Of a stretch of DNA of 21,359 bases, positions 1 through 16,947 are shown in pieces. Each line of letters begins with the position of its first letter. Within the stretch, counting starts at the first letter, position 1. The notes under the pieces were generated by a model. The model saw only the letters and a list, made by a program, of their open reading frames with translations, did not search any database and was not told the DNA's origin. Origin of the DNA: an uncultured Alphaproteobacteria bacterium. GTDB taxonomy: Bacteria > Pseudomonadota > Alphaproteobacteria > UBA3830. Location of the stretch: positions 1,276 through 22,634 of the forward strand of contig CAJOEB010000003.1 of assembly GCA_905233775.1 (NCBI GenBank), read 5' to 3'. Made by a program: the position numbers and the translations under genes.

Positions 1-2
1 AA

Positions 3-2370: not shown

Positions 2371-2421
2371 ATGGTTGGCTGAGACGTGCATATAGAAAAA
2401 TTAACTAGGGAGAAGAGAAAA

Positions 2422-2586: not shown

Positions 2587-2616
2587 TTGCTTTTCTCATG
2601 TCTCAGTTCATATAAT
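2587..2616 (+). promoter_or_regulatory. Predicted sigma70-type promoter for the Cys-rich gene
   Basis: TTGCTT (2587-2592) and a consensus TATAAT (2611-2616) are separated by 18 bases. The expected transcription start, near 2623, lies about 25 bases before ATG 2648. This suggests the downstream gene is transcribed independently of the phage tail/lysis run. Confidence 0.45.
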
Positions 2617-2647
2617 TAAATTATGAAAAATTATAAGAGCGAAAGAT

Positions 2648-3082: not shown

Positions 3083-3087
3083 ATGAA

Positions 3088-3116
3088 TTGAGCAATAATT
3101 AGCTTCATGTTATGCT
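3088..3116 (+). promoter_or_regulatory. Predicted sigma70-type promoter for the HU-family gene
   Basis: TTGAGC (3088-3093) and TATGCT (3111-3116) are spaced by 17 bases. The expected start near 3123 leaves a short leader containing the strong ribosome-binding site GAAGGGG (3131-3137) before ATG 3146. Confidence 0.4.
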
Positions 3117-3145
3117 TTTTTGTAGTTTTTGAAGGGGTTTTTATA

Positions 3146-3415
3146 ATGAACAAATCGGAATTAGTAAAAGCAATTTCTGAAAAAGCTGGAAGTACAGTAA
3201 AAGATGCAGAAAATTTCTTACAGGCGTTTGTCTCAACAATAACTGAATCAATGAAAAAAGGAGATGATGTTATGTTAGTAGGCTTCGGTACGTTTTCTGT
3301 AGCTGAAAGGGCTGAAAGAATCGGTCGCAATTTTAAAACAGGAAAGAATATTCAAATTCCAGCTTCAAAGTCAGTGAAGTTTAAAGCTGGAAAAACTCTG
3401 AAAGATGCTGTGTAA
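3146..3415 (+). CDS. HU-family DNA-binding protein
   Basis: An 89-residue protein, the normal HU length. It begins MNKSELVKAISEKAG and has the helical N-terminal dimerisation half (AENFLQAFVSTITESMKKGD). The diagnostic segment VGFGTFSVAERAERIGRNF is followed by KTGKNIQIPASKSVKFKAGK, covering the DNA-intercalating arm and the conserved closing strand. HU proteins bind and bend DNA without strong sequence preference and organise the nucleoid. ATG 3146 is chosen over an upstream in-frame start at 3107 because it has GAAGGGG at proper spacing and gives the family N-terminus. It stands alone with its own promoter. Confidence 0.95.
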   Translation: MNKSELVKAISEKAGSTVKDAENFLQAFVSTITESMKKGDDVMLVGFGTFSVAERAERIGRNFKTGKNIQIPASKSVKFKAGKTLKDAV

Positions 3416-3504
3416 TAACATTACAGGTAGCGAAAGTATTTTTAGATATGTGCAAAAGTAAGATGTTTTATAATGATGTTTCTGCTTATTTTCGTTTTGG
3501 AGAG

Positions 3505-3535
3505 TTGAATTTTAACCTTTGTCCAGTGATATAAT
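3505..3535 (+). promoter_or_regulatory. Possible promoter upstream of the exported protein gene
   Basis: TTGAAT (3505-3510) and TATAAT (3530-3535) are separated by 19 bases, slightly long. The predicted start would leave a leader of about 120 bases before ATG 3661. A partial repeat of the Cys-rich gene (3601-3627) lies inside that leader. Confidence 0.3.
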
Positions 3536-3660
3536 TTATAAACAGTAAGATGTTTAAACTAAAAATTAATTTTTTTGCGTATTTCTATAATCAGCTAGTT
3601 CGATTATGTGAAATTTTTGCATAAACAGTAAACAGCTTGTGATAGTAGTGTATGTAAGAA

Positions 3661-4971
3661 ATGCTAAATAGATATGTAATTAGTATATTATGTGTACTGT
3701 TTTGTTCTGATACAGAAGGGCGGCTTCCGAAATATCAAGGAAAAATAGCCGCTGAAGCTTTGGTTAATATAGCTTGGCCTGGTGAAGACACAATAGGTGA
3801 TTATGGAACCAGAGAAGCCTTTATTAATGATCTTATTGATCTAATCTACACTAATACTGGTAGGCAATCACTTGCTGATTGGATGTACGATAGAAGACCT
3901 GGGGGTGGTGTTGCTTATGGAAGATACAAGACATCTATTCTTCATCGCATTGAAGGAGATAGATTTACGACAGATTCTCTCTTTGGTTCATTACTTCAGA
4001 AGATACGAAATGCTGATAATGATAATCAGATTATTAACGCTAAATTTTCACAGCTGGTTAATTTAGCATTTCCCTGTTGGACTGGTACATTAACTTGCTA
4101 TATGCATAACACAGGAAGCGCTCTTGCAACAGAAGCATTACGAGAAAATCCAATGAAAATCATAGAAGCATGTCAATGGTTTTTAGGAATAGGAGGAATA
4201 ACTACCGATAATTTACCAGAAATAATACGAGCTAAAGCTACAATAAAAAATGATTTGATTACCAACAATAGTAATCTAATAAAGACTATAGGTGTCCTTT
4301 TTAGTCTTGAGTTAATTGACGATTGGAATCAATTGAAATTAATAGTAAACAATCAGGATTTGAATGAGCCTGATGTTCCTGAAGACTATTCATTTCTTCC
4401 TTCAGTAGTGCCAATACCGAATACATGTTACAACGTTGGAGGATACTGTAAATCAGATTGTCATTTAAATACATTAAAAAATTTAGTTGCTATTTTATGC
4501 CATGAACATTATGGTGAATATATTCTTAATGAAAGTACGAAGCAATATTTTTTTGGTAAACAAGGAACAACCGCATACCTAGAACATATCTTTGGAAGTA
4601 CTAGCAGGGTTGAACATACAACATGGGCTGATTCTTTACCAAATAATATAAAGACTGTTATTACCCCTACATTTCAATGGCTGGCGTATGCTTTACATGT
4701 ATTACTTCAGGAAAATATAGATTTTCTGACTTGGCGTAGCACACATAATACTTTAGTAACTATAAGAAACTCTATAGAAGAATCTATACGAAAAATTCAT
4801 GAAACTGCAACTGTCACAATTGAAGAAACAGGAGGAGCTCAATGGATTGAAAGTCAAATTGCAATAACAATTCCAAATTTTTTTAGAATAACGATTAAAG
4901 GAAAACTACTATCTGGAACTGGAACACATATAGAAATAACTGAAATCACCTCTATCGGAGACGAAGAATAA
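3661..4971 (+). CDS. Predicted exported protein of unknown family
   Basis: A 436-residue protein. Residues 1-20 have a short basic start and a hydrophobic core (MLNRYVISILCVLFCS), consistent with a signal peptide. The mature part is rich in aromatic residues and predicted helical. Features include ALVNIAWPGEDTIGDYGTRE, a Gly-rich RRPGGGVAYGRYK near residues 78-90, paired cysteines CYNVGGYCKSDC (about residues 257-268) that could form disulfides, LCHEHYGEYIL, and a C-terminal beta-rich domain (AQWIESQIAITIPNFFRITI followed by KGKLLSGTGTHIEITEIT). No transmembrane helix is evident after the leader. I do not recognise the family. The ribosome-binding site before ATG 3661 is weak (GTAAGAA). It converges with another predicted exported protein at 5038-5550; host-associated bacteria often carry lineage-specific secreted proteins of this sort, but no function is assigned. 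Confidence 0.75.
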   Translation: MLNRYVISILCVLFCSDTEGRLPKYQGKIAAEALVNIAWPGEDTIGDYGTREAFINDLIDLIYTNTGRQSLADWMYDRRPGGGVAYGRYKTSILHRIEGDRFTTDSLFGSLLQKIRNADNDNQIINAKFSQLVNLAFPCWTGTLTCYMHNTGSALATEALRENPMKIIEACQWFLGIGGITTDNLPEIIRAKATIKNDLITNNSNLIKTIGVLFSLELIDDWNQLKLIVNNQDLNEPDVPEDYSFLPSVVPIPNTCYNVGGYCKSDCHLNTLKNLVAILCHEHYGEYILNESTKQYFFGKQGTTAYLEHIFGSTSRVEHTTWADSLPNNIKTVITPTFQWLAYALHVLLQENIDFLTWRSTHNTLVTIRNSIEESIRKIHETATVTIEETGGAQWIESQIAITIPNFFRITIKGKLLSGTGTHIEITEITSIGDEE

Positions 4972-5037
4972 ACTCACAACAGTCCTACTCAGAATACAAA
5001 TTTATTTAACGCTTGAAAACAAAACTACCAGTATAAT

Positions 5038-5550
5038 TTATGGATCATACTCATCTTCTGGTCCATCAAAAACTAACGTACCGAAAGCTTCACTATTATA
5101 TTCACTAAGTAAAGATTCCTTAGTAATACGTTGTTTTGCTTGCTTACGAGACTTTACAGTCTCTAATAAGGTAGATACTTTTGCAAAACTTTCTTCATCT
5201 TTTTCAGTTTTATCTTTCATTTCCCATATAAAAGCCCAATAAGCTTTGTCTGCCACTGAAAAAGTCAAATCTTCACGGCACAAAAGTTCAATCAATGGTT
5301 CAATAATAGCCGTACCACTTTCTGCTATAATACAGGCAGCACTAACCAAAGACTCTTCTGTTAACGGAGAAGTATGAAGAGGCTTCGGGGATCGATAAAA
5401 AGTATGAGGAGATTTCATAGATGACACCACTAATTGATCATGCATTGCGTTGCGAGGAGGTAACGACATGCTATGAGAGTTTTCAATTGATAAGATACAA
5501 TACACAGAGGTAACGTAAACTAATTTTTTAACAAAACTATTGCTAAACAT
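5038..5550 (-). CDS. Predicted exported protein of unknown function
   Basis: A 170-residue protein beginning MFSNSFVKKLVYVTSVYCIL, a basic stretch followed by a hydrophobic core, with likely cleavage after about residue 26 (SIENSHS). The mature protein has a proline-rich linker (residues 30-63), a helical block (ESLVSAACIIAESGTAIIEP and LIELLCREDLTFSVADKAYW) and an acidic C-terminus (FDGPEDEYDP). I recognise no domain. ATG 5550 has GGAG 11 bases upstream, and a plausible promoter lies about 30 bases further out. It converges with the exported protein at 3661-4971, with 66 bases between the two stops and no obvious hairpin terminator. Confidence 0.6.
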   Translation of the reverse strand: MFSNSFVKKLVYVTSVYCILSIENSHSMSLPPRNAMHDQLVVSSMKSPHTFYRSPKPLHTSPLTEESLVSAACIIAESGTAIIEPLIELLCREDLTFSVADKAYWAFIWEMKDKTEKDEESFAKVSTLLETVKSRKQAKQRITKESLLSEYNSEAFGTLVFDGPEDEYDP

Positions 5551-5578
5551 CTCCGTTCTCCAACTAACCTCACTTTAC

Positions 5579-5607
5579 ATCGTACAGAATTTTTTTCAAA
5601 AAATCAA
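5579..5607 (-). promoter_or_regulatory. Possible promoter of the minus-strand exported protein gene
   Basis: On the minus strand, TTGATT (5607-5602) and TACGAT (5584-5579) are separated by 17 bases. Transcription would start near 5572, about 20 bases before ATG 5550. Confidence 0.35.
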
Positions 5608-5710
5608 CTTTTACATCAAAATAGCTGTACTATTCTCAATAGAGAGCTCATTTTATGATAGACACTAAAAAACTTCTACAAATTTTGCGCAATTGTACTA
5701 ATATGTGACC

Positions 5711-5848
5711 TTATTTATTTGAAAAATAAAACCAAAGTGCGAAAATTCCGAAAAGCGTAGCAAGAAAGGCCAAGAGTCCTTTTAGATTTTCATCTTTAAA
5801 TTTTTTCAAAAATAATTTTTTCTTTCGAAGAAGCCATTGTAAGAGCAA
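5711..5848 (-). CDS. Possible tiny single-pass membrane protein (doubtful)
   Basis: A 45-codon frame from TTG 5848 to TAA 5711 encodes a very basic N-terminal half (RKKKLFLKKFKDENLKG) followed by a hydrophobic segment LLAFLATLFGIFALWFYF and SNK. The hydrophobic stretch is long enough to span a membrane. No good ribosome-binding site is visible and the start codon is non-standard. An ATG in another frame (5836, MASSKEK...) runs into the same region and stops after 13 codons at an A-run, so this may also be a frameshifted remnant of a small protein starting MASSKEK. Confidence 0.25.
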   Translation of the reverse strand: MLLQWLLRKKKLFLKKFKDENLKGLLAFLATLFGIFALWFYFSNK

Positions 5849-5935
5849 TATCTGTGTTTATATCATATAAAAAAACAATGTAACATATGACCATTGAGAT
5901 CGTCTAAATATTCCGGATATTACGATAGCTAAAAT

Positions 5936-5974
5936 AACCTCAATTTCGTATAAGAACCTCAACTTCGGATAAAG
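5936..5974. repeat. Two-copy ~19-base tandem direct repeat upstream of the operon
   Basis: AACCTCAATTTCGTATAAG (5936-5954) is followed immediately by AACCTCAACTTCGGATAAAG (5955-5974). The units match at 17 of the first 19 positions. The pair ends about 135 bases before the operon's -35 element. Closely spaced direct repeats at such a position can be regulator-binding sites, but this is only positional inference. Confidence 0.5.
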
Positions 5975-5991
5975 TTTAACAAAATTGACTC

Positions 5992-6044
5992 AAACCTTCT
6001 TGCTTCGATCGATTCCATTATCTTAATACTTTTGCAAGAAGTTT
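5992..6044. repeat. Inverted repeat between tandem repeat and operon promoter
   Basis: CTTCTTGC (5996-6003) pairs exactly with GCAAGAAG (6034-6041). The match extends outward with AAAC (5992-5995) against GTTT (6041-6044), allowing one bulged C. The loop is about 30 bases. There is no long T-run, so a classical terminator is unlikely; a DNA-binding site or RNA structure is possible. Confidence 0.35.
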
Positions 6045-6109
6045 ATTCTATATCTAAACTTCAGCTGTTTTTTATTAGAAATTGTTCGCATTTGATATCT
6101 GAAAACTCA

Positions 6110-6137
6110 TTGCAATATCTTAGGAATTTTATATAAT
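6110..6137 (+). promoter_or_regulatory. Predicted promoter of the radical SAM operon
   Basis: TTGCAA (6110-6115) and a perfect TATAAT (6132-6137) are spaced by 16 bases. The predicted start near 6144 gives a 25-base leader to ATG 6170, which carries GGAG at 6159-6162. This supports 6170 over 6149 as the first start codon of the operon. Confidence 0.6.
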
Positions 6138-6169
6138 CGAGAAGAGTTATGTATTCATGGAGTTATTTT

Positions 6170-7726
6170 ATGGAATCTGTTACAATTCAAAGATATAATA
6201 TTTATTCAGGACTTTCTGTGAAATATGGCTCTGTTGAGTTATGTTTTGATCCTGCGAAAATTTGTAAACAAGATCTCTATAATATTAATCCAGATTTTAT
6301 TTTTATATCGCATGAATCAATGGATCATTTGGATCCATTCCAAGTTTATGTTTTGCAAAAGAAAAAAAATTGCGATGTATTTTGCAGTATTGCTGCAGCT
6401 GCTGATCTTGTCCAATTCTTTCCTAATGATACAGATTTCAAAGAACATATTCACGCTTTAATTCCGGGATCGTATGTCACAACTGAAAAATTTGTTATTG
6501 AGGCAGAAAAGTCCATACATTGTGATTATATGATGCCTATCGTTATAAAAATAACGGATCGTAGCACAAAAATATCTATACTCCATTGTTTTGATTCTTT
6601 CCTTTCTGGAAATATTGTCGAATTGTCCAAAAATACAGATATTGCAATTGTACCATTGGGAATAGCTAAAGGTATATCCGGAACGGAATGCCTGTCATTT
6701 ATTGATTCGTTACATAGTCGTTATTTTGTTACAAATCATTTTAAAAGCAGAAAGGAATTAAATGATTTCAGAACGATCACTGACAACCATGATAAATGCT
6801 TCTATGTAGACTGGAACGAAAAATGTTGTATTAATGTTGAAGGAGTTGGTGTAGTTGATACAGAAAAAGCGGAATTCAATGAAAATAAAAGTGAGATAAA
6901 TGTGGCGGAAATAATATCAAATTTTTCGGATTTTAAGTATATCGTATTAAATGATGAAACTTTTCTGAAAAAGATTTTTGAAGCTTATAAAGATTCGGAA
7001 TATAAAACAAAAATAAAATTGATTTTCCTGTACACGTTAATTGCTTTAGTTGATGCTTCAGTTATAGATGAGCAAGTTATCGATTTGATGAAATCTGACT
7101 TTTTAACAGTTGAAATACCCGATGAAAATAATTGTTTGCATGCTGTAATACTTTTCTTTTTAGGAATATATGCTCAACAATCTTCAAAAAGCTGTTCTGT
7201 TGATTTCGGTGAAAAATTAAAATCAGCGAATGAACATGTAATTTATTGGTTTACTGAATATCTGGGGAGAAGTATAACATCTTCTAAGGAAAATAATGAT
7301 AGTGTTAATAAACTAATCGAGATTATTTCTAATTCAGATTTCTATAATTCTGTTGTTATTCGGCGCAGAATATTTTGGGAATTGCATAGAGTTATGAAAA
7401 CTTTTCCGATGCTGGCGAAAAAATTTATGAAGACATTTGAAGATGGATTAGTTGATCAAAATCCGGATGTTCGGTTGTTAGCTGTTTTATGTTTTTCTTT
7501 AGCAGATAAGACAATGGTTTTAGATGATAACCAATTGGAAAAAATTTTACTTCTTTTGAGTGATGAAGAGGAAGATGTTCGAGAAAATACGGTAAAAATC
7601 GCGCGTGATCTGAAAAATCGTACGTTTGTAATGAAAGGTAAGGATAAAATATGTTTTCTTCTGAATGATCACGACTGTCATGTAAAAAATGAAGCAGAGT
7701 TAACAGTAAAAGCTTTAACGCAATAG
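6170..7726 (+). CDS. Metallo-beta-lactamase-fold protein with C-terminal HEAT-like repeats
   Basis: A 518-residue two-domain protein. Residues 1-225 look like an UlaG/Lactamase_B_3-type metallo-hydrolase: IYSGLSVKYGSVELCFDPAK, then FIFISHESMDHLDPFQ. This is the H-x-H-x-D-H metal motif with the second His replaced by Ser. Later come SIHCDYMM, ILHCFDSFLSGNI (the Asp-bearing strand) and FVTNHF (the distal His). Residues about 240-518 are helical repeats of HEAT/ARM type, clearest near the end (GLVDQNPDVRLLAVLCFSLA, LLLLSDEEEDVRENTVKIAR, LLNDHDCHVKNEAELTVKAL). Family members are hydrolases or scaffolds; the missing His makes catalysis uncertain, so a metal-binding or partner-docking role is equally possible. 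ATG 6170 is chosen for GGAG at 7 bases; ATG 6149 would be almost leaderless. First gene of the operon, ending 12 bases before a radical SAM gene. Confidence 0.75.
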   Translation: MESVTIQRYNIYSGLSVKYGSVELCFDPAKICKQDLYNINPDFIFISHESMDHLDPFQVYVLQKKKNCDVFCSIAAAADLVQFFPNDTDFKEHIHALIPGSYVTTEKFVIEAEKSIHCDYMMPIVIKITDRSTKISILHCFDSFLSGNIVELSKNTDIAIVPLGIAKGISGTECLSFIDSLHSRYFVTNHFKSRKELNDFRTITDNHDKCFYVDWNEKCCINVEGVGVVDTEKAEFNENKSEINVAEIISNFSDFKYIVLNDETFLKKIFEAYKDSEYKTKIKLIFLYTLIALVDASVIDEQVIDLMKSDFLTVEIPDENNCLHAVILFFLGIYAQQSSKSCSVDFGEKLKSANEHVIYWFTEYLGRSITSSKENNDSVNKLIEIISNSDFYNSVVIRRRIFWELHRVMKTFPMLAKKFMKTFEDGLVDQNPDVRLLAVLCFSLADKTMVLDDNQLEKILLLLSDEEEDVRENTVKIARDLKNRTFVMKGKDKICFLLNDHDCHVKNEAELTVKALTQ

Positions 7727-7738
7727 AATAATTAAGAA

Positions 7739-9295
7739 ATGATAAGAAGTTTAACAAAAACGTGGGGAGATTTCGGAAAAGTAGCTTGTTCAAAAGAGCA
7801 ATTTGTGTTAACTTATAGGCTTTTCTTTAGAAAATTAGAAGATAAATATAACAAAGAGCCTCCGTTATATTTAACAGTGAATTCTCTTTCCGGAGCGGTA
7901 GATATTTTCGATTCATCAGAAGGAGAATGTCTGGAAGCGTTTATAAGAGATAAAGATCCTTCGGTAATTTCAGATAAATTATTTTCGTTTCTAAGAAAGA
8001 GGGGATATATTTTTCCTTCAAAAAATTTAGAGAATTTAGCATTTGATACAGTTATAAAGCATCATAAGTACAAAAAGTATTTCAAAGATAAGATCTTAGG
8101 ATATTTTTCAATAGACATGTCTTGTCCTATGGGTTGTAAATACTGTTTCGAAAAAAAATACTCAAAAGATGATGGTATTTTTGAAAATGCTTTAATGGAT
8201 AAAACATCAATCGATGCAGCTTTTAATTTTCTGAATTTTATAAAAGACTTACAAGAAAAAGAGATCGATTTCGTCGCAGGTTGGGGAGGAGAACCACTTC
8301 AAGAAAAGAATAGCGATATAAATGAGTATTTTATAAAAAAAGCTGTTCAGAATGGATATAAGGTTGCGTATTTTTCTAATTTGGCGTTTGTCGGAGCAAA
8401 GCTTACCAAGATACTTAGTGAACACGCAGAGAATTTTAAGTTTATTCAGACAACTCTGGATGATATTCCTACAAAGCATGATCATTACCGCAATTTAAAT
8501 AACGCGTTTGAACGAACAGTAAATGCAATTGATGGACTTTTGAAATCGGATTTGCCGGTAATTGTTCGAACAAATGTTGGAGAACATAATATTGATGCTC
8601 TTCCATATCTTGCTGAGTTTTATGAAGAGAAAGGATGGTTTAACTATCCGAAGTTTAAAGGTTTTATTACTCATGTTTATGATCGTCATCATGAATTTAC
8701 TCAAAAATTCACTGGATATGAGAGTAAAATGCTCTCTCGTTTTTTAGAGTTAAGGGATAATTATCGTTGCGTTAGAAAAATACAAGGCATTAAATTCGCT
8801 CCATCAGTAAGTAATATTATTAAGGCATTCAAATTAAGAGAAGTAACGGATATCACAGAAGAAAATTTTGAAGTAGAAATAAAACCTATAATTTCTTATT
8901 GTGTGGCATCATCTAGAGCTGAATATGTATTTACTGGAGCTCCAAATTATTCGATATATAATTGTGCGGAATGTACAGGATTATCGAAGTTTAAAATCGG
9001 GCATTATTATCCAGAAGTAAATATAGATGATAATGCTGCGAAAATGTGGGGAATCAACAATAGTATTCACGATGTACGATCTATTGATTCACTGGACAAA
9101 TGTAAGAATTGCAAAGCTGCGACTTTTTGTGGAGGATATTGCGCATTAGAGGCTATTTGTGATAATGGAAATGTTAATGACGTCTTTTGTAAACAAGCTG
9201 ATGTGATAATAAATGATTTCCTTGAACAGGAATCAGATCGGCTATATAGACGAGCAAAAATTCTTTTAGAAAAAACTGAAAATATATCAATTTAA
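7739..9295 (+). CDS. Radical SAM/SPASM enzyme with N-terminal accessory domain
   Basis: A 518-residue iron-sulfur enzyme. Residues 1-115 form an N-terminal domain (LYLTVNSLSGAVDIFDSSEG and SFLRKRGYIF) resembling the PqqD/RRE-like leader-binding region found at the front of several peptide maturases. The radical SAM core has C129-x3-C133-x2-C136 (SCPMGCKYCF) for the SAM-binding 4Fe-4S cluster and GWGGEPL near 181-187. The C-terminal third carries many cysteines (CVASSRAEY, NCAECTG, CKNCKAATFCGGYCALEAIC, FCKQAD), the SPASM arrangement that binds auxiliary clusters. In known relatives such enzymes modify ribosomal peptides or protein side chains by radical chemistry. The substrate here is unknown. 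It sits between the MBL-HEAT gene and a second radical SAM gene with 11-12 base gaps; the ribosome-binding site before ATG 7739 is weak (TTAAG). Confidence 0.9.
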   Translation: MIRSLTKTWGDFGKVACSKEQFVLTYRLFFRKLEDKYNKEPPLYLTVNSLSGAVDIFDSSEGECLEAFIRDKDPSVISDKLFSFLRKRGYIFPSKNLENLAFDTVIKHHKYKKYFKDKILGYFSIDMSCPMGCKYCFEKKYSKDDGIFENALMDKTSIDAAFNFLNFIKDLQEKEIDFVAGWGGEPLQEKNSDINEYFIKKAVQNGYKVAYFSNLAFVGAKLTKILSEHAENFKFIQTTLDDIPTKHDHYRNLNNAFERTVNAIDGLLKSDLPVIVRTNVGEHNIDALPYLAEFYEEKGWFNYPKFKGFITHVYDRHHEFTQKFTGYESKMLSRFLELRDNYRCVRKIQGIKFAPSVSNIIKAFKLREVTDITEENFEVEIKPIISYCVASSRAEYVFTGAPNYSIYNCAECTGLSKFKIGHYYPEVNIDDNAAKMWGINNSIHDVRSIDSLDKCKNCKAATFCGGYCALEAICDNGNVNDVFCKQADVIINDFLEQESDRLYRRAKILLEKTENISI

Positions 9296-9306
9296 AAAAG
9301 GGAAAA

Positions 9307-10308
9307 ATGGAAGTAGATTTACATGTAACCAATCGTTGTAATTTTAGATGCAAACATTGCGTATATAAGTCAGGTGAATAGAGTATGCCTGATATGACTT
9401 TAGATACTGTAAAAAATCTAGTTAACGATTTTAAAGAGATGGGAGTTGAAGAGGTTCATATAACTGGAGGAGAACCATTATTAAACCCTGAGTTATTTGC
9501 AATAATATCGACATTAAGAAGCAATGGTTTTCTGGTTCGCATACAAACTAATGGAATGCTCATAAATGAAGAAACAGCAGATAAATTAAGAGATTCTGGA
9601 GTTCAACACGTTTTGATAAGTATAGATGGTTTAAAGAATTCACATAATGCATTTAGAAGGAATGAGAGATCTTTTGATATTGCTATACAAGCAAGTAAAA
9701 TATGTTTAAAAAAAGGACTATTTACTCGAATAAATACCGTCATTCATAAAAGTAATGTATCAGAAATTCCTTATTTGATCCGTTTTATAAAGACGCTAAA
9801 TGTTGATCAGCATTCTTTCTTTTATCTTACTCCTACAGGAAGAGGTGAATCAATGAAATCAGAAATTCTTTCACTTGAAGAATGGAAAAATGTGCAAAGG
9901 TCTATCATAGAGACAGCAATCAGTGAAAAAATTTTAGATAAGATACGAGTTCAAGATGTTTATCATGAAAATGATGTGCATTATAACGATTTTGATATAT
10001 GTAGAAAAGACAATTGTTTAATCCTAGCGAACGGAGACGTTTTTCATTGCGTATTTTTTGTGTACAGTAACTATAAATTAGGCAACATCTACAAATCATC
10101 ATTATCTGAAATATGGAAAAATCTGGACAATATGATCGAAAGCATTAATAACAAGAGAAAAAAACGCTGTAATAATAGTTATTGTGGGGGAGGTTGTCCA
10201 GGTATGTCCTTTATTATAGATGGAGATGTATGTGATTGTGATTCTAGATGCCAACCAGAGTATAACTTAATTTCCAGCTGTATTCGGAGGTATAGAACAG
10301 AATCGTGA
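9307..10308 (+). pseudogene. Radical SAM/SPASM enzyme interrupted by in-frame TAG at codon 25
   Basis: Starting at ATG 9307, which has a strong GGG-containing Shine-Dalgarno 5 bases upstream, the frame reads MEVDLHVTNRCNFRCKHC with the canonical C11-x3-C15-x2-C18 motif. It then hits TAG at 9379-9381 and continues in the same frame without another stop to 10308. The continuation is a complete radical SAM core (HITGGEPLLNPELF, RIQTNGM, LISIDGL) and a SPASM-like C-terminus (CRKDNCLILANGDVFHC, CNNSYCGGGCPGMSF, CDCDSRC). Without the stop it would be a normal 333-residue enzyme. ATG 9385 could restart translation, but its product would lack the cluster-binding cysteines and should be inactive. Possible explanations are a nonsense mutation, a base-call error, or suppression of TAG; the upstream MBL-HEAT gene uses TAG as its stop, which argues against general reassignment. 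The stop overlaps the next frame's GTG (GTGA). Confidence 0.75.
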
Positions 10309-10364
10309 AAAATATTTTTTTGTGTATGGGAATTTTTGTTGTTTTTGCAATAGTAGAGGGTATT

Positions 10365-10889
10365 ATGTCAACTAAAACAGAAGTAAGAAACAGTGTAAAA
10401 ATTGTTTTATTAAACGATAAAAACGAGCTCTTGTTAATGGGAACAGATGATCAGAATATCAAAAATGTTAATGGAGAATATAAAGGACGTTTTTGGCAAT
10501 TGATTGGAGGGAAAATTGAAGAAAACGAGACAATAATGGAAACAGCAAAACGTGAATTGTTTGAAGAAACTTCTATAAACAGTAAAGATGTTGAATTCGG
10601 TCCAATAATTTGGCATGGGGAACTAAATTTATTAATGAATAATATACAAACGACAATTAATCAAAAGTTTATTGTCGCTCGATTAAAGACAAATGTTAAT
10701 TTAAGTCTGAAGCATTTAACCAAAGAAGAAAAAAGAACAGTCACAGAATTAAAATGGTTTTCTCTGAAAGAAATCGAAGATAGTAAAGAAATAATTTATC
10801 CGGGAGTTTTACCTATTTATTTAAAACAATTATTGGACGGTAATATACCTGACAGTTCACTAAAAATAGATTTGGCAAAAATGAAATGA
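10365..10889 (+). CDS. Nudix hydrolase
   Basis: A 174-residue protein with a full Nudix box: GGKIEENETIMETAKRELFE followed by ETSI, i.e. G-x5-E-x7-REL-x-EE-x-S-I, where Ser takes the usual Gly position. Before it lie TEVRNSVKIVLLNDKNELLL and FWQLIGG, the usual opening strands. Nudix enzymes hydrolyse nucleoside diphosphates linked to another group, using the RE..EE glutamates to hold Mg2+. The substrate cannot be read from sequence. ATG 10365 has GAGGG just upstream and gives a normal family N-terminus. An earlier GTG at 10305 overlaps the preceding stop and would add a 20-residue hydrophobic leader (MKNIFLCMGIFVVFAIVEGI), which is unusual for Nudix enzymes but cannot be excluded. A Nudix enzyme inside a radical SAM operon could supply or dispose of a nucleotide-linked intermediate; that is inference. 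Confidence 0.88.
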   Translation: MSTKTEVRNSVKIVLLNDKNELLLMGTDDQNIKNVNGEYKGRFWQLIGGKIEENETIMETAKRELFEETSINSKDVEFGPIIWHGELNLLMNNIQTTINQKFIVARLKTNVNLSLKHLTKEEKRTVTELKWFSLKEIEDSKEIIYPGVLPIYLKQLLDGNIPDSSLKIDLAKMK

Positions 10890-10911
10890 TTCTTGTTTGG
10901 GAGTATGTGTT

Positions 10912-11973
10912 GTGAGATGGAATATCGGATGGGGACTTACATCGGCTTGTAACTCTTGCTGTCGACATTGTTATAATGCGTCTGGGGGAGCAAATATTAC
11001 ACAGATATCTTTTGAAGATGCAAAATCTATCGTAGATGTTTTGGCAGTTCATAATGTCGAAACGATAAATTATGGTACTGGAGAAAGTGGTTTAATCCCT
11101 TATTTTTGGGACTTGGTTAAATATGTCCATGAAAAAGGTATAGAGCAAGGTCTTACAAGCAATGGTTCATCTGTTACAGAAAAAACTATGCCTTTCATTA
11201 AGAAATATATAAATGATATAGATATATCAATAGATTATCCAGATGAACAAAGAAATAATGACTTTCGAGGATCTGAACACGCTTGGAATTGGGCTTTGAA
11301 TGCTTGTAACCTACTTAAAAATGAATCAATAAATTTCAGTATAGTCACATGTCTGCATTCCTTGAATTCTGATGAGAATACAATCTTAAAATTTTTGAGT
11401 ATGTGTAAGGAGTTTGGATGCGAATGGAGAGTAAATTGGTTTAAACCTACAGGTCGAGGAAAGTTTGATAAAGAATTGAAATTAGATCCCAAAAAAGTAC
11501 ATAGCATCTTTCGATTGATCGTTGAGAATTCTGTAATTACAGCCTTACCTGATCCGTATTTTTCCGCGATTATCGGATTTAATAAACGTATCGGAGCCCC
11601 ATGTGGTTGCGAGTCTTTTAGAATTACTCCAACAACAGAAGTCGTTCCGTGCGTATATTTCACGAAAGAGATGAAAAACTTATCGCTGCTTACCAGTAGT
11701 TTTTCTGAAGTCTTAGATAGTCCGTTAATGCAAATAGTCAGAAAACGAGATGTTGCAGTTTGCAAGGGGTGTGAGTATGAAAAATTTTGCCACGGAGGTT
11801 GTGTTAGTAGAGCGTATTTAGAGTATGGATCAATCAATTCTCCCGATGCATTTTGTTTTAAAATGAATGGTTTTGTCGACAACCCATTAAGAAACTTGTG
11901 TTATGTAGTAGAAGATGGGCCTAAGAAAGTTCACGAAAATTATTTATGCACTTTGATCGTGCGCCCGAAATAA
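10912..11973 (+). CDS. Radical SAM/SPASM enzyme with atypical GGEP motif
   Basis: A 353-residue protein. It begins MRWNIGWGLTSACNSCCRHC, with C13-x3-C17-x2-C20 as the cluster motif and an extra Cys16. The segment that usually reads GGEP is NYGTGESGLIP, a clear deviation in the SAM-amino-group loop. The SPASM-type C-terminus contains CGCESFRITPTTEVVPCVYF, CKGCEYEKFCHGGCVSRA and FCFKMNG, enough cysteines for auxiliary clusters. GTG 10912 is preferred because GGGAG lies 8 bases upstream; a TTG at 10897 would add five residues but without a site. It follows the Nudix stop closely and precedes the methyltransferase by 15 bases, so it is part of the same operon. Substrate unknown; the family includes peptide and small-molecule modifiers. 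Confidence 0.88.
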   Translation: MRWNIGWGLTSACNSCCRHCYNASGGANITQISFEDAKSIVDVLAVHNVETINYGTGESGLIPYFWDLVKYVHEKGIEQGLTSNGSSVTEKTMPFIKKYINDIDISIDYPDEQRNNDFRGSEHAWNWALNACNLLKNESINFSIVTCLHSLNSDENTILKFLSMCKEFGCEWRVNWFKPTGRGKFDKELKLDPKKVHSIFRLIVENSVITALPDPYFSAIIGFNKRIGAPCGCESFRITPTTEVVPCVYFTKEMKNLSLLTSSFSEVLDSPLMQIVRKRDVAVCKGCEYEKFCHGGCVSRAYLEYGSINSPDAFCFKMNGFVDNPLRNLCYVVEDGPKKVHENYLCTLIVRPK

Positions 11974-11988
11974 TAATTTGAGTTTGAA

Positions 11989-12690
11989 ATGAAATTTGAC
12001 GTAGAAAAACAGTATTTAGAAAATTATCCGTATTATGGGCGTTTTTGTCAGGATAAATTTGTAAACGACCATTTTTTTCACAACAAAAAAAATGGAGTAT
12101 TTGTTGATATAGGTGCTTATGATGGAGTAGAATCAAGTAATACATTATTTTTCGAAGAAAGTTTGAATTGGAATGGAATATGTGTTGAACCAATTCCTGA
12201 AATATACCAAAAATTGGAAAAAAATCGTAAGTGTAGCTGCTTTAATTGTTGTGCATCTAGTCATGATGGCATAGGAGAATTTCTACATGTAAAACCTGGG
12301 ATGAGACCAAAAAAGCAAAATACTGAGAGAACTTCAAACTATGAAAAGCTAAGTGGGTTGATAGAATTTTATTCTGAAGAACATAAGAAAATAATCAATG
12401 ATATAATTTTAAAAACTGGAGGAGAAAAAAACAAACTTTCTATTTCATGTAGATCAATAAATTCCATTTTGGATACACTAAAATGCAACAAAATCGATCT
12501 ATTGTCAATCGATACTGAGGGGAGCGAAATGCATATATTAAAAAGTATAGATTTTCGTAAATATTCCTGTTCTGTAATTATTGTCGAAGTTTTATACGAT
12601 ATTGAGAGTATGGATAACTTAATGAATACATTGGGTTATAAATACATAACCAAAATCGGATATGACGCAATTTATGTTAAAAATAACTAA
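11989..12690 (+). CDS. FkbM-family SAM-dependent methyltransferase
   Basis: A 233-residue enzyme with FkbM signatures: SAM motif I FVDIGAYDGVESSNT (about residues 37-51), the following ICVEPIPEIYQKL acidic-ribose loop, and the C-terminal IDLLSIDTEGSEMHILKSID block (about residues 165-184) that defines this family. FkbM-type enzymes usually O-methylate sugar or polyketide hydroxyls. Position as the last gene of the radical SAM operon suggests it decorates the product of the pathway. Its ribosome-binding site is weak (GAG in TTTGAGTTTGAA). Several cysteines (CSCFNCCAS) near residues 78-87 are unusual but have no assigned role. Confidence 0.9.
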   Translation: MKFDVEKQYLENYPYYGRFCQDKFVNDHFFHNKKNGVFVDIGAYDGVESSNTLFFEESLNWNGICVEPIPEIYQKLEKNRKCSCFNCCASSHDGIGEFLHVKPGMRPKKQNTERTSNYEKLSGLIEFYSEEHKKIINDIILKTGGEKNKLSISCRSINSILDTLKCNKIDLLSIDTEGSEMHILKSIDFRKYSCSVIIVEVLYDIESMDNLMNTLGYKYITKIGYDAIYVKNN

Positions 12691-12723
12691 AATTTAACTC
12701 TTATTTAAATTATTATATGATAA

Positions 12724-12729
12724 TATAAT
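12724..12729 (+). promoter_or_regulatory. Possible -10 element for the phosphatase gene
   Basis: A TATAAT at 12724-12729 lies 45 bases before ATG 12775. The upstream -35 is poor (TTATTT at 12701-12706, 17-base spacing). It suggests the phosphatase gene may be transcribed on its own as well as by read-through from the operon. Confidence 0.3.
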
Positions 12730-12774
12730 CCTATTGAGGAATATTGCTTTTTTATTCTATTACTGGAAGTTGTT

Positions 12775-13674
12775 ATGAAATTCATAATTAGCTTAGTTTT
12801 TTTTCTTACGGGTACTCTATTTGCGCAATCTATAGGATGCGCAATTGATGAAATGAATCTTAGAATAGATGAGTTGAGTACCAAACTAAAAAAAAGTTGT
12901 AGTCCTTATATATACAATTTAAAAGAAGAAGAAATTAAAAAACGGTTTAAATCTATAGAACAAGTTAGGTGGAATGTTTATTTTACAAATCCAGAGGATT
13001 ATGGGAAAAAAGGAGCTATTGGATTTTTCAAAAGTGCCTACAAAACGCCAAATGACTGGGAAAAGTATAGAAGTAGATATCCATTTCCAATGTCTTTTGA
13101 ATATAATTTAGCTGTACCATATTACAGTGCTAATATATTAGTTATTGATGAAGTAAAATTTATAGCAATAGAAGCTCCTTCGGAAAAAAATAAAGAAAAA
13201 TTTTTAGAGATTATAAAATCATATGATATAGGGCAAATAGTAAGACTCAACAAACCAGATGAATATCCAGACGAAAGTTACTATTTTTATTGGGAAGATC
13301 CATTGCTTCTTGATATACAAAATGTCGTATTAGAATGGCCACATAGAGATGGAATAAATCCGCAAGCATTATTGAAAACTGTAGAGACAGTATTTAATCA
13401 ACAAAAAATGTTATCATCAAAATTTATAGGTGTTTCTTGTCGAGCTGGAGCAGGAAGAAGTGGAACATTCATAGTCGCATATGCTCTATATAACAAAATA
13501 CAAAAAGAGATGCCGCTAGCAAAGAAAAAAGAAGACATAAAATTAAATATTGACGAATTATTTCTAAAAGCAAGTATCCAACGGCCTTTCGCTATTAGTC
13601 ATCAGTCTCAGTATATCACGCTTTACCGTTTTGTAGACTTAGTTATTGAAAAACTATTCTCGAAAACTATTTGA
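12775..13674 (+). CDS. Exported classical protein tyrosine phosphatase (eukaryote-like)
   Basis: A 299-residue protein with an N-terminal signal peptide (MKFIISLVFFLTGTLFA, cleavage likely before QS). The mature part follows the classical PTP domain in order: PYYSANILVIDEVKFIAIEA followed by PSEKNKEKFLEII, equivalent to YINANYI...YIA.Q.P....FW.M; QIVRL; a WPHRDG loop at residues 188-193 in the place of WPD; the P-loop SCRAGAGRSGTF with Cys222, Arg228 and Ser229 (C-x5-R-S); and an ending QRPFAISHQSQYITLYRF like the Q-loop region. The usual HC is SC, and the general-acid Asp of WPD is displaced to WPHRD, so catalysis may be altered. In host-associated bacteria exported PTPs act on host phosphotyrosine; that role is inference. 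GGAAG precedes the start. It lies next to, but is chemically unrelated to, the radical SAM operon. Confidence 0.85.
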   Translation: MKFIISLVFFLTGTLFAQSIGCAIDEMNLRIDELSTKLKKSCSPYIYNLKEEEIKKRFKSIEQVRWNVYFTNPEDYGKKGAIGFFKSAYKTPNDWEKYRSRYPFPMSFEYNLAVPYYSANILVIDEVKFIAIEAPSEKNKEKFLEIIKSYDIGQIVRLNKPDEYPDESYYFYWEDPLLLDIQNVVLEWPHRDGINPQALLKTVETVFNQQKMLSSKFIGVSCRAGAGRSGTFIVAYALYNKIQKEMPLAKKKEDIKLNIDELFLKASIQRPFAISHQSQYITLYRFVDLVIEKLFSKTI

Positions 13675-13682
13675 ATTAACTA

Positions 13683-14795
13683 TTAAAGTAATTTGTGCTG
13701 TGCTTTTACTATATCTTCATATCTTTCATTATTAGCATTAAAGTGAGGAGATTCTATATTTGATATCCATTGATAAATGACATTTTGTATATCTTCACTA
13801 AACGAAGACATATCAATAGATTTATCTTTTATCCCATCAAATAATTCTATGCAAAAAGGATGAGGAGAAAGAAGATCTCCTCCAGTTGAAAACGATATGG
13901 ATCGACATGCTCCTAAACACGTCTTCCAAAAAATGCACTTGGCACATAATCCTTTAAAATTTGCTTGATGCAATTCTCGTATTCTTTGGAAATGTGAGGA
14001 TGACCATATTTCTTTTAAAGGTCTCTCTTTTATGTTCCCAGCAATAAACGTTCTATTGTTGAAAGTAATTGGAGCGCATGATGTGACGTCGCCGTTTGGC
14101 ATAATTTCGCACCTATGAACTCCCCATCCACATTTTTTTTGACCTCCGCCCGAAAATATATCTGGTAATTCTATTATTACGTGTTTGTACCTATCTCTTA
14201 GTGTGCTAACAGTTTTAAGACAATCATTGATTTTTCTTAATGATATATTCTTTCCATTCCCATTTGGACTGTGAGCTAAAAAAACCCTGTTTCTAATGTT
14301 TAACCTTTCAGAAAATCCAAAAATATGATCTATTTCAGTATCATTGATATTAGTAATAACGGTTTGTATTTTAACATCGCATCCTATATCTACGAGTTTT
14401 TCTATATTTTTTCTTACAATTGCAGCTTGTTTGTCACCTCTCATTTTTTCGCCATCGTAACTTATTGCAAATTCAACTTTTGAGATAAAATTACCTAAAT
14501 TTTTTATGATTTTATCGATTAACATTCCATTGGATTCTACTTCTACTCTTAATCCTTTTGAAAAACAAAATATTATCGAATCAATAAGAAAATCTGATAC
14601 TAAAGGTTCTCCTCCTGTAAACGTCACTTTTCTGCATCCAAGATCTATAGCTTCTTCAACTAGTTTAGAAATCGTAACAAAATCAAGTTGTACATTATCC
14701 CCGAACCAATCTGCTGCATAACAATGAGGACAATTCATGTTACATTTTGAAGTTATTCTAATATGAAGGTCTTTTAATATAGGGAGTGAACTCAT
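13683..14795 (-). CDS. Radical SAM/SPASM enzyme (fourth in the window)
   Basis: A 370-residue enzyme. LHIRITSKCNMNCPHCYAAD contains C18-x3-C22-x2-C25, the radical SAM cluster site, and VTFTGGEPLVS follows near residue 60. Further core motifs are VESNGM and FAISYDGE. The SPASM end has CGWGVHRCEIMPNGDVTSCA and CAKCIFWKTCLGACRSISFS, then HPFCIELF. This layout is shared with peptide-modifying and heme/cofactor-related radical SAM enzymes, but the substrate is not evident. ATG 14795 has AAAGGATG 9 bases upstream and a candidate promoter (14842-14869). It is transcribed towards the phosphatase with only 8 bases between the stops, so it is a separate unit from the 6170-12690 operon, though it may belong to the same accessory region. 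Confidence 0.88.
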   Translation of the reverse strand: MSSLPILKDLHIRITSKCNMNCPHCYAADWFGDNVQLDFVTISKLVEEAIDLGCRKVTFTGGEPLVSDFLIDSIIFCFSKGLRVEVESNGMLIDKIIKNLGNFISKVEFAISYDGEKMRGDKQAAIVRKNIEKLVDIGCDVKIQTVITNINDTEIDHIFGFSERLNIRNRVFLAHSPNGNGKNISLRKINDCLKTVSTLRDRYKHVIIELPDIFSGGGQKKCGWGVHRCEIMPNGDVTSCAPITFNNRTFIAGNIKERPLKEIWSSSHFQRIRELHQANFKGLCAKCIFWKTCLGACRSISFSTGGDLLSPHPFCIELFDGIKDKSIDMSSFSEDIQNVIYQWISNIESPHFNANNERYEDIVKAQHKLL

Positions 14796-14841
14796 TATTG
14801 ATTACATCCTTTTACACAATATAAACACTATATGCGACTTA

Positions 14842-14869
14842 TTTATACTTATAATCCACTACAAATCAA
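14842..14869 (-). promoter_or_regulatory. Predicted promoter of the minus-strand radical SAM gene
   Basis: On the minus strand TTGATT (14869-14864) and TATAAA (14847-14842) are spaced by 16 bases. The predicted start near 14835 gives a 40-base leader to ATG 14795. Confidence 0.4.
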
Positions 14870-14912
14870 GTATTGTAAGCATATATTTTTCCATCAAATT
14901 ATAATGAACAAC

Positions 14913-15572
14913 TTATACCAGGATTTTTTTATTGGAGATGAAGGTATCTTCATTTTGAATTTGTTTCCAAATGTGAGCGAAAAATGCAGCAATGTTTCGG
15001 GCATCATTGAGGGCTATATGATCTCTTTTATACGGAGACACAAAATTAAAAGAATTTTTATAACCACTTGATATGCTGTTGAAACTCTTTTTATATTTTA
15101 AAATATACCATGCCTTTTGAATAGAGCCAACATCCCAAATCATTCTATATATTCCCGATGTACTATAGTTTAATGAGTATCTTTTTGTATATTTACTTAA
15201 ATACAAATTAATCCAACCAATATCAAATGATGGATTATCTGATATAATAATAAGGTTTGAATATTTGCATTCTACCTCATATAAAAAGGCTACAAATTCA
15301 TCCATAGCTAATCTAGGAGGAATAGTATTTGAAGTAGCAAAGTCATACGCTTCTTTATGAAGATTCCAAAAATTATTCAGGCATTCTGTATCAAAATGTA
15401 GGTTATCTTCTAAGGCCAGATTCCTTTGAAAGTAACATAATTCATTCATATCCCAGTCTTGCACTGTAACTCCGATACTAAGTAATCCATTAGATATAAA
15501 ATTTGGACCACTTGTTTCTACATCAATTGCAACAATAATTGGATCATTATCCATATTAAGGATTTTTGTCAT
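14913..15572 (-). CDS. DEDDh 3'-5' exonuclease (Rv2179c/RNase T-like)
   Basis: A 219-residue protein with the exonuclease-superfamily motifs in order: ExoI IVAIDVETSGP (Asp17, Glu19), ExoII LIIISDNPSFDIGWINLYL with the second catalytic Asp in SFDIGW, and ExoIII HIALNDARNIAAF (His then Asp, the DEDDh type). Together with AIDVETSG and HxALxDAR, the pattern is closest to the small 3'-5' exoribonuclease family typified by Rv2179c. Such enzymes trim RNA or single-stranded DNA ends with two metal ions; they often occur on phages and mobile elements. ATG 15572 lacks a strong ribosome-binding site, and an in-frame ATG six codons later is also possible. A TATAAT at 15608-15603 on the minus strand could be its -10. 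Confidence 0.85.
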   Translation of the reverse strand: MTKILNMDNDPIIVAIDVETSGPNFISNGLLSIGVTVQDWDMNELCYFQRNLALEDNLHFDTECLNNFWNLHKEAYDFATSNTIPPRLAMDEFVAFLYEVECKYSNLIIISDNPSFDIGWINLYLSKYTKRYSLNYSTSGIYRMIWDVGSIQKAWYILKYKKSFNSISSGYKNSFNFVSPYKRDHIALNDARNIAAFFAHIWKQIQNEDTFISNKKILV

Positions 15573-15602
15573 TGTACCAGTATAACTATATCAATTCTGT
15601 TT

Positions 15603-15608
15603 ATTATA
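15603..15608 (-). promoter_or_regulatory. Possible -10 element for the exonuclease gene
   Basis: A TATAAT on the minus strand lies about 30 bases before ATG 15572. No good -35 is visible at standard spacing. Confidence 0.3.
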
Positions 15609-15662
15609 ATCTTACACATTCGTTAGATAAATCTGAATTAAAGAAAAAGTAAAAAGTATAAA

Positions 15663-16898
15663 TCATAAATACCCAACAGGAATAGCTATAACATCATGTG
15701 AAAGTGGGATATCTTTTTCGCGCAGGCAGATAACAGCTCCTGTACCGATCTCTTTTTTCAAAGAATTTAAAACATTAAAGCTCTTTGCTGCAGTTAATGA
15801 AGGTGTGGCTGTTTTTTTTACTTCTGCAGGATATAAAATCCCGTTTTGCTCGATCACGAAATCAATTTCTCGCTGATCGGCGTCTCTGTAAAAATAAATA
15901 TTTGGCGTTTTCCCGTTGTGCCAATAGCTTTTTAAAATTTCACCAAAAGCATACGTTTCTAAAATTGCCCCACTCATAGCGCCTAGAGATAAGTTTTTCG
16001 GACTATCCCATCCTGTAAGAAAAGCGCAAAGCCCTGTATCTAAAAAATATAATTTTGGAGTCTTTATGATGCGTTTCGTAATATTGTTGTAATAAGGTTC
16101 AAGTAAATAAACCAGCCCTGATGCTACCAAAATTGAAAGCCAAGACTTTGCTGTCTTTGAATCAATATCGACGTCTCGAGCCAATTCTGAATAATTCAAT
16201 AATTGTCCCGTTCTTGCAGCTGTCGCTCTCAGAAACTTGTAAAATGACAATTCATTACTGATTCCTAAAATATCTTTTACATCTCTCTCAATATATGTTT
16301 GAACGTATGATTTGAAGAAAATATCTCTGTACTTTCCGTTTTCCGTAACCATTTTCGGAAACGATCCCAGCCATATTTTTTCAAAAATATTATCAATATT
16401 TGAAACGTATGATTGGTTTTCTCCGGCGTTATTTATCCATTCAGAAGAGGGCAAGAATGGCTTAGATTGATCCGCTTTTCCTGATATTTCCTTTGCAGAT
16501 AAACCAAGCATATCAACAACAGCAACACGTCCGGCTAAAGATTCTGTAATACCTTTCATAAGCTGAAAACGCTGTGAACCGGTTAGCCAAAAATCCCCTG
16601 GTTTTTGATTTTTATCTACATGCATTTTTATATAGGAGAATAATTCCGGAGCATATTGAATTTCATCGATAATAAGCGGTGTTTTATGCATTTGCAAAAA
16701 TAAACTCGGATCACTTTTGGCAATAGCTCGCTCTTCCAAATCATCCAAAGTAACATATGCTCGATTTTCCTTTGCACATAATTCCAGCAGAGTTGTTTTG
16801 CCGATCTGCCTTGAACCAGTTAAAAGTAAGATGGGAAATGCTTGTGATAAATCTTCGATTATATTTTTTAATGAACGTTTTAACACTATATGCCTCAT
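15663..16898 (-). CDS. AAA_14 / DUF4143 family ATPase
   Basis: A 411-residue protein of the common AAA_14-DUF4143 family. The N-terminal ATPase has Walker A GSRQIGKT (residues 28-35), YVTLDDLEERAIAKSDPSLF, Walker B PLIIDEIQYAPELFSYIK, and the sensor-like FWLTGSQRFQLMKGITESLA followed by GR. The middle has RDVKDILGISNELSFYKFLR (about residues 205-224) and a helix-turn-helix-like YSELARDVDIDSKTAKSWLS. The C-terminal DUF4143 part includes KLYFLDTGLCAFLTGWDSPK and a restriction-endonuclease-fold signature REIDFVIEQNGILYPAEVKK (D...E-x-K). The cellular role of the family is not established. It is a single gene with a very good promoter and no partner gene. Confidence 0.93.
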   Translation of the reverse strand: MRHIVLKRSLKNIIEDLSQAFPILLLTGSRQIGKTTLLELCAKENRAYVTLDDLEERAIAKSDPSLFLQMHKTPLIIDEIQYAPELFSYIKMHVDKNQKPGDFWLTGSQRFQLMKGITESLAGRVAVVDMLGLSAKEISGKADQSKPFLPSSEWINNAGENQSYVSNIDNIFEKIWLGSFPKMVTENGKYRDIFFKSYVQTYIERDVKDILGISNELSFYKFLRATAARTGQLLNYSELARDVDIDSKTAKSWLSILVASGLVYLLEPYYNNITKRIIKTPKLYFLDTGLCAFLTGWDSPKNLSLGAMSGAILETYAFGEILKSYWHNGKTPNIYFYRDADQREIDFVIEQNGILYPAEVKKTATPSLTAAKSFNVLNSLKKEIGTGAVICLREKDIPLSHDVIAIPVGYL

Positions 16899-16918
16899 AT
16901 AATTAGGAATCTAGATCC

Positions 16919-16947
16919 AATATACACGATTAGTCCTTTTTTGTCTA
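16919..16947 (-). promoter_or_regulatory. Predicted promoter of the DUF4143 ATPase gene
   Basis: On the minus strand TAGACA (16947-16942) and TATATT (16924-16919) have ideal 17-base spacing, and each matches consensus at five of six positions. Transcription would begin near 16912, leaving a very short leader before ATG 16898. Confidence 0.5.

Follow-up and report, generated by a model that had tools for sequence, protein, structure and literature searches.

The systems closest to the genes considered here are built around radical S-adenosylmethionine (SAM) enzymes. They include the mycofactocin maturase MftC, the heme enzymes NirJ, NirJ2 and AhbD, the SPASM-type maturases of ribosomally synthesized and post-translationally modified peptides (RiPPs), and the pyrroloquinoline quinone (PQQ) operon, in which a metallo-beta-lactamase (MBL)-like protein is found beside radical SAM genes. 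We analyzed 21,359 nucleotides (the window) from an uncultured Alphaproteobacteria bacterium of the lineage UBA3830 (assembly GCA_905233775.1, contig CAJOEB010000003.1, positions 1,276 to 22,634), in which six plus-strand genes, P1 to P6, lie in a compact row at 6149-12690. An earlier note on this DNA had described the row as one operon with three radical SAM/SPASM enzymes (P2, P3 and P5), an MBL-HEAT fusion (P1), a Nudix hydrolase (P4) and an FkbM methyltransferase (P6), possibly forming a new peptide, cofactor or nucleotide-derived product pathway. Our results show that the cassette is real, lineage-restricted, partly broken and situated beside prophage genes, but that it is not a demonstrated six-gene pathway. 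The transferable result is a clade of SPASM proteins to which P5 belongs.

None of the described systems fits the row closely. A Pfam scan of ten window proteins gave matches above cut-off for Radical_SAM and SPASM (P3 and P5), NUDIX (P4) and Methyltransf_21 (P6), which upholds the earlier calls for P4 and P6. Among the 25 best NCBIfam models viewed for each of P2, P3 and P5, however, no named radical SAM family reached its cut-off, and only the generic SPASM-domain model (TIGR04085) was passed, by P2. The likeness to the PQQ operon does not extend to its specific components, as PqqE lies far below cut-off for P3 and P5 and no window protein scanned, the front of P2 included, has a PqqD match at E<=1. 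As the earlier note had supposed, no described pathway with this gene order turned up in literature searches.

P5 belongs to an unnamed SPASM clade

The best NCBIfam match of P5 was MftC (TIGR03962), at 117 bits against a cut-off of 265, and its score with the viperin model was 55 bits against a cut-off of 180. Identities as PQQ, mycofactocin or viperin enzymes were rejected on the basis of such scores. P5 is like MftC in its radical SAM and SPASM domains and in length, but it differs in falling under the model cut-off and in lying outside the MftC pair in our trees, and no mftA- or mftB-like open reading frame (ORF) was noticed by eye near it. In a plasmid search, the best matches of P5 were in Phaeobacter (five records), Streptomyces clavuligerus and Enterococcus, with MftC proteins behind. 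A second plasmid search with the P5 relative of genome G347 as the query (E<=1e-15) returned seven records, all of them Phaeobacter, Enterococcus or S. clavuligerus records already matched by P5, and MftC was absent.

Relatives of P5 are scarce among genomes. They were found in three of the 397 other genomes of the phylum set at E<=1e-25, in none of the 39 other family genomes at E<=1e-10 and, by a profile search of the 384 other genomes of the class set at E<=1e-40, in two, one of them new (G770). The 48 genomes of G347's class held only two relatives that were already known, and phages contributed two faecal records at 21-24% identity. Seven clade loci other than the window were thus available: those of Phaeobacter, Enterococcus and S. 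clavuligerus, all on plasmids, and those of genomes G115, G347, G449 and G770.

In a 20-row tree, P5 and six members formed one group with support of 100/99 and the MftC pair outside it, and a second 20-row tree with G770 added again gave 100/99; as the rows were picked by similarity to P5, the separation applies to the sampled outgroups. A further tree placed P5 with the Enterococcus member (98/93). Consistent with this grouping, a seven-sequence alignment (A1) shows a C-terminal H..YLxTxI tail, the CX3CX2C motif and other invariant positions, and the G770 protein has a similar tail. P5 is similar to the clade over its full length (27-29% BLAST identity, in a comparison of the members other than G770) and shares with it the tail and a pyrophosphate-cleaving neighbor. 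The clade members scanned passed no NCBIfam cut-off among the models shown except that of TIGR04085. Text searches of mostly openly accessible literature, including the accessible part of PMC7159879, found no description of the clade. Because no named cut-off was passed and no description was found, we take the clade to be undescribed.

Pyrophosphate-cleaving genes lie near P5-type genes

To compare gene neighborhoods, we scanned for homologs of pyrophosphatases (PPases) by BLAST and for the Nudix-box motif within 8 kb, using one of the five Phaeobacter records. As PPase queries we used one protein from the Phaeobacter locus and one from the Enterococcus locus, and these two loci also match each other. 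A PPase or Nudix gene was present, 0.6-5.1 kb away, in all seven other clade loci (a PPase in those of Phaeobacter, Enterococcus, S. clavuligerus, G347 and G449, a Nudix gene in those of G115 and G770), versus none of the 22 other SPASM loci fetched. Nine controls had at least 4 kb on both flanks; with the window's own P8, a fourth radical SAM/SPASM gene, left out, the contrast was 7/7 clade loci versus 0/8 controls, or 6/6 versus 0/8 when G347 and G449 were counted once, although the G770 Nudix gene is 5.1 kb off and so past the 4-kb limit that the shortest limited controls just exceed. In the window, the Nudix gene P4 is directly upstream of P5. Its Nudix box ends in EETS, with Ser as the last residue, so that the motif scan missed it, even though it is near both P5 and P8.

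Other genes in the clade loci would also be in keeping with nucleotide or diphosphate chemistry. These included the following: adenosine-deaminase-like genes in G115 and G347 (by Pfam) and in G449 (88% identical to that of G347); a thymidylate/deoxynucleoside-kinase-like gene in G115 (Pfam); and adenylating enzymes in Enterococcus (by annotation) and G770 (Pfam), with a gene of G347 and G449 being alike to an adenylating enzyme in one stretch, with no Pfam match for the G347 copy, which was the one scanned. A cobalamin-type radical SAM gene occurs in four of the seven other loci (Enterococcus; S. clavuligerus and G115, by similarity; G770, weakly, at 22-23%) and is not a defining feature. At least one of the cobalamin-type radical SAM, adenylating-enzyme and adenosine-deaminase-like genes is present in six of the seven, and the Phaeobacter locus has a PhnM-like gene instead. 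Based on these neighbors, the substrate of P5 would be a nucleotide- or diphosphate-linked molecule. In G770, the P5-type gene is flanked by the two best BLAST matches of P3 among the sequences compared, both radical SAM genes, and the Nudix gene lies ~5 kb on. The window differs from the other clade loci in adding P1, P2, P3 and P6. Separately, upstream of their PPase and P5-type genes, G347 and G449 both encode a shared small protein (L093 8519-8824 and L094 5259-5534).

P3 is interrupted by an in-frame stop codon

The ORF beginning at 9385 lacks CX3CX2C, and its match to the radical SAM profile begins only at profile position 27. A frame opening at ATG 9307 encodes 24 residues, including CNFRCKHC, then a TAG, then the rest of P3 in the same frame. 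We identify this first piece as the lost front of P3 because it aligns with a G770 radical SAM protein, at 56% identity over 23 residues. P3 is therefore interrupted just after CX3CX2C, so that this motif and the barrel are not in one chain, and it is not countable as an intact radical SAM enzyme. Since P3 is split, at most two of the row's three radical SAM enzymes are intact: the earlier count of three holds for P2 and P5 but not for P3, whose stop codon had gone unremarked.

The best NCBIfam matches of P3 were the NirJ, NirJ2 and AhbD heme models, at 130 bits against a cut-off of 500, and a plasmid search (E<=1e-15) returned mostly NirJ and TIGR04347 proteins at 22-30% identity. Beyond the score and the interruption, P3 differs from the heme enzymes in that no heme d1 genes are among the scanned window proteins. 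The grouping of P3 with the two G770 radical SAM proteins was unsettled, being present in 42% of bootstrap trees with an approximately unbiased test p of 0.397 in one row set and supported at 85/76 in another.

Two frameshifts elsewhere in the window, in prophage genes, accompany the TAG, and decay is the simplest reading of the three lesions, with sequencing error possible. Recoding of TAG was considered and is disfavored, given that P1 itself ends in TAG and that three lesions in the contig favor decay or sequencing error; ARAGORN predicted no tRNA genes within the window, the search for a suppressor tRNA being confined to this part of the genome. It is very unlikely that the cluster-binding 24-residue piece and the core work together as two separate chains, for which an AGGTGA lies 7 bases upstream of the second P3 ATG.

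A candidate role for the P4-P5 core

We tentatively favor the explanation that the row is a horizontally acquired, partly decayed accessory cassette, the P4-P5 core of which acts on a nucleotide- or diphosphate-linked small molecule. In this proposal P5 would carry out a radical step on such a molecule, the Nudix hydrolase P4 would cleave the diphosphate and P6 may methylate the product, while P2 would supply a radical SAM/SPASM enzyme nearest to peptide maturases. The function of P3 would have been lost through the nonsense codon, leaving a pathway that is either partly decayed or was never in need of P3. Of the products suggested in the earlier note, the nucleotide-derived one thus has support for P4-P5, through the clade and its neighborhoods, but not for the whole six-gene row.

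Several observations weigh against this explanation. P2 is closer to peptide maturases than to enzymes of small-molecule chemistry. Among the ten window proteins scanned, we saw no cobalamin-type radical SAM enzyme, adenylating enzyme or deaminase of the sort found in other clade loci. The neighborhood contrast comes from a small clade sample (seven loci, with G347 and G449 of one genus) and a convenience set of controls with uneven flanks, and the S. clavuligerus PPase match is short (44% over 41 residues). The TAG in P3 and the frameshifts could be sequencing errors, the contig being a draft. Lastly, the adjacency of P4 and P5 may be secondary, as the nearest relatives of P4 are native to the lineage and none was seen beside a P5-type gene.

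The broader proposition that the clade of P5 represents an as yet undescribed class of SPASM radical SAM enzymes for diphosphate- or nucleotide-linked natural products, borne on conjugative plasmids and here beside a prophage and paired with a Nudix gene, strikes us as rather improbable as it stands. If the clade does act on such substrates, it would offer a testable handle on clusters that are now annotated only as containing a radical SAM protein, several of them on conjugative plasmids of human-associated Enterococcus and marine Phaeobacter.

P2 and the possibility of a peptide product

An alternative, which we regard as possible but doubtful, is that this is a RiPP cassette, in which P2 (and once P3 and P5) would modify a ribosomal peptide encoded elsewhere, P6 would methylate its backbone and P1 would be a partner. 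P2 falls just under the Pfam Radical_SAM cut-off (26.1 versus 29.5 bits, E 1.1e-5), and its top two NCBIfam alignments are to peptide maturases, namely ryptide (74.7 bits, cut-off 600) and TIGR04463 (60.8 bits, cut-off 525), the latter alignment beginning at residue 45, within the front of the protein. P2 is nevertheless far under every one of these cut-offs (42-75 bits versus 500-600 for the RiPP maturases among its top alignments, which also include CefB and FlmE/OhkG and lie partly over the front), and the SynChlorMet (58.1 bits) and heme NirJ (50.7 bits) models are close behind. Also in favor of this alternative, the one FkbM enzyme characterized in a RiPP pathway N-methylates the peptide backbone (PMC9259500). 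Given that precedent, P6 does not decide between a peptide and a small-molecule product.

The front of P2 had been proposed to be PqqD/RRE-like (RRE, RiPP recognition element), and we could not confirm this. Apart from the missing PqqD match, only one of four PqqD-like fronts was marginally alike to it (11/500 shuffles), and its predicted structure had a predicted local distance difference test (pLDDT) score of 24-57, too poor to judge the fold; the model of the whole protein from a six-row alignment (mean pLDDT 50.4) was too poor to use. We agree with the earlier note that no precursor peptide is visible between the genes, since none of the ORFs in the gaps was plausible by eye. The G770 clade locus encodes a 95-residue protein with a GG-leader-like stretch by eye, which would suit a RiPP, but this protein matched no family above cut-off and had only chance-level matches in the window.

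Relatives of P2 were few. Among 39 related genomes (23 in the family) there was one weak partial match, in G033 (24%, E 9.7e-5), and there were none in the 288 other genomes of the class set (E<=1e-12) or the 397 of the phylum set (E<=1e-10); plasmids and phages gave two records each, at 21-28% identity. Peptide-pattern scans for close relatives yielded two distant radical SAM loci (L005, 23%; L008, 32%), and several further scans were empty.

Two loci seen during these searches are of separate interest. In G017, a PqqD protein is encoded beside a radical SAM/SPASM gene (L081 8079-9476), possibly as a peptide-modifying pair in a reduced lineage, and an Indioceanicola plasmid (L097 1162-8458) has a PqqD gene and three genes annotated as radical SAM, with TIR and SIR2 genes next to them.

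Coherence of the gene row

It is unlikely, in our estimation, that the row consists of unrelated accessory genes that gathered in a cargo region undergoing decay and share no pathway. The six genes are on the same strand with no intergenic gap above 56 bases (counting P4 and P5 from their probable starts and P3 from 9307), and in G770, too, genes resembling P3 and a gene of the P5 type occur together with a Nudix gene. Such a chance assembly would nonetheless accord with the broken P3, with a set of six that was not seen elsewhere and with the distribution of P4. P4 is lineage-native; G016 encodes a DNA-alkylation-repair/Nudix fusion (L058 135-1370) whose Nudix half has 68% amino acid identity to it. 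In a DNA search with 2400-18100, which scored the seven best candidates per genome, the Nudix gene alone of the six matched, in G007 and G016. These two Nudix genes have no radical SAM neighbors as far as the contigs reach, both of which end just downstream. For the same reasons, the single six-gene pathway of the earlier note is not sustained, and neither is recurrence of the set in other genomes, as the protein-level genome searches, which covered P1, P2 and P5, gave no convincing relatives of these three.

The MBL-HEAT fusion was clearly borne out in its second half only. The C-terminal half of P1 has significant HEAT-type Pfam matches (Cnd1, E 7.2e-8, above cut-off), while the front has a weak metallo-beta-lactamase match (Lactamase_B_3, E 0.087). 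The metallo-beta-lactamase family motif is HxHxDH, in place of which P1 has SHESMDHLD, with the second His substituted. By that rule, one metal ligand of P1 appears to be replaced. A structure model of P1 alone was too poor for use (mean pLDDT 33.9). There was no convincing relative of P1, with no match at E<=1e-5 among 48 further genomes from the order, nor any in plasmids or phages.

The "one good promoter" that the row was said to follow is a site at 6110-6137, well placed and with 10/12 matches, but it is not above chance, given that 28 promoter-like sites were observed in the region versus 38.3 expected in shuffles. An Rfam search found nothing. At 31.5% GC, the cassette is slightly poorer in GC than seven stretches from elsewhere in the genome (33.1-35.5%).

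Table 1. Features of the 21,359-nucleotide window, in window coordinates.
Feature	Positions	Strand	Basis or remark
Tailed prophage end: tail proteins, endolysin; gpD-like tail gene and endolysin frameshifted	1-2590	+	Frameshifts near 1157 and 2355
P1: MBL-like front (variant HxHxDH) and HEAT-repeat C-terminal half, 525 aa	6149-7726	+	Alternative start 6170, the ATG of the earlier note, also plausible
P2: radical SAM/SPASM protein, 518 aa	7739-9295	+	Pfam, NCBIfam
P3, first piece: 24 codons with CX3CX2C, in-frame TAG at 9379-9381	9307-9381	+	Reading frame
P3, second piece: remaining radical SAM core and SPASM, in frame of first piece	9385-10308	+	Pfam, NCBIfam
P4: Nudix hydrolase, probable start ATG 10365	10305-10889	+	Pfam
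P5: radical SAM/SPASM protein, member of the clade with the H..YLxTxI tail; GTG 10912 is the probable start	10897-11973	+	Trees, alignment
P6: FkbM-family methyltransferase	11989-12690	+	Pfam, NCBIfam
Protein-tyrosine-phosphatase-like gene, signal-peptide-like start (by eye), adjoins P8	12775-13674	+	Pfam
P8: fourth radical SAM/SPASM gene	13683-14795	-	Pfam; 67% aa identity to G017 relative
Module of serine integrase and primase, from a prophage type that is common in the family	17740-21359	-	Integrase relatives in 19/39 other family genomes

Prophage setting

The window takes up almost all of a 22.6-kb contig in a 1.2-Mb draft genome that is 83% complete, and a run of 65 Ns ends right before its start. 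The earlier note had not reported the prophage setting, and P8 and the tyrosine-phosphatase gene are just outside the interval it considered. Phage tail and endolysin genes are to the left of the cassette, and a serine integrase and a primase are to the right. Integrase relatives at E<=1e-60 are present in 19 of the 39 other family genomes, which ties the contig to this lineage. The stretch in common with other prophage copies ends near 2587. As compared with intact relatives, the gpD-like tail gene is frameshifted near 1157 and the endolysin near 2355, with ~12 residues lost from the latter; the most similar copy among those fetched (G004:C55) has its own frameshifts in two tail genes. The lysis and integrase ends face each other across ~14 kb, an arrangement that both one prophage and two would fit. 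We had suspected a truncation of the primase, wrongly, as its reading frame continues without a stop to the end of the contig.

The cargo differs between copies. In G017 (L056), homologs of the tyrosine-phosphatase gene and P8 lie 0.3 kb past the endolysin, arranged the opposite way round from the window. The endolysin of G004:C24 has a gene for a type I DNA methylase next to it. G003:C126 has hydrolase, DNA-alkylation-repair and HxlR-regulator genes, its link to the other copies being only short matching stretches beyond the endolysin. The region thus looks like a variable accessory cargo site beside prophage lysis genes, comparable to the hotspots of P2-like phages, where variable genes likewise stand beside conserved prophage genes and often include antiviral systems (PMC9122126), although the span here is ~14 kb rather than ~1-5 kb. 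A role for the cassette as an anti-phage or inter-element conflict system, with the radical SAM enzymes making an antiviral nucleotide or peptide, would suit such a site and the methylase of G004 but is improbable, since the PADLOC matches were limited to viperin models, across the radical SAM core, and a single Nudix model, the viperin score of P5 is far under cut-off, and the cargo of the other copies is not of one defense kind. What the setting does indicate is radical-enzyme chemistry among the cargo next to a prophage in a reduced genome, in a family in which SPASM proteins are rare (9/40 genomes, its own included, eight of them over cut-off).

Several smaller features of the region and of P8 were also recorded. 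Two proteins encoded in the cargo region at 3661-4971 and 5038-5550 begin, judged by eye, with signal-peptide-like segments, and neither reached the cut-off of any Pfam family. A P8 relative on a Parabacteroides plasmid (L108 4911-8535; 96/91, on long branches) is near a cytidylate-kinase-like gene and hpt. The stretch at 16999-17214, between an ATPase-like gene and the integrase, recurs at 83-92% identity in other contigs of the genome itself and in contigs of G003 and G004 and may be a dispersed repeat. The stretch at 15667-17210, in which the minus-strand ATPase-like gene lies, has copies at 91-92% identity in G000:C89 and G003:C56 and so has recently moved or been duplicated.

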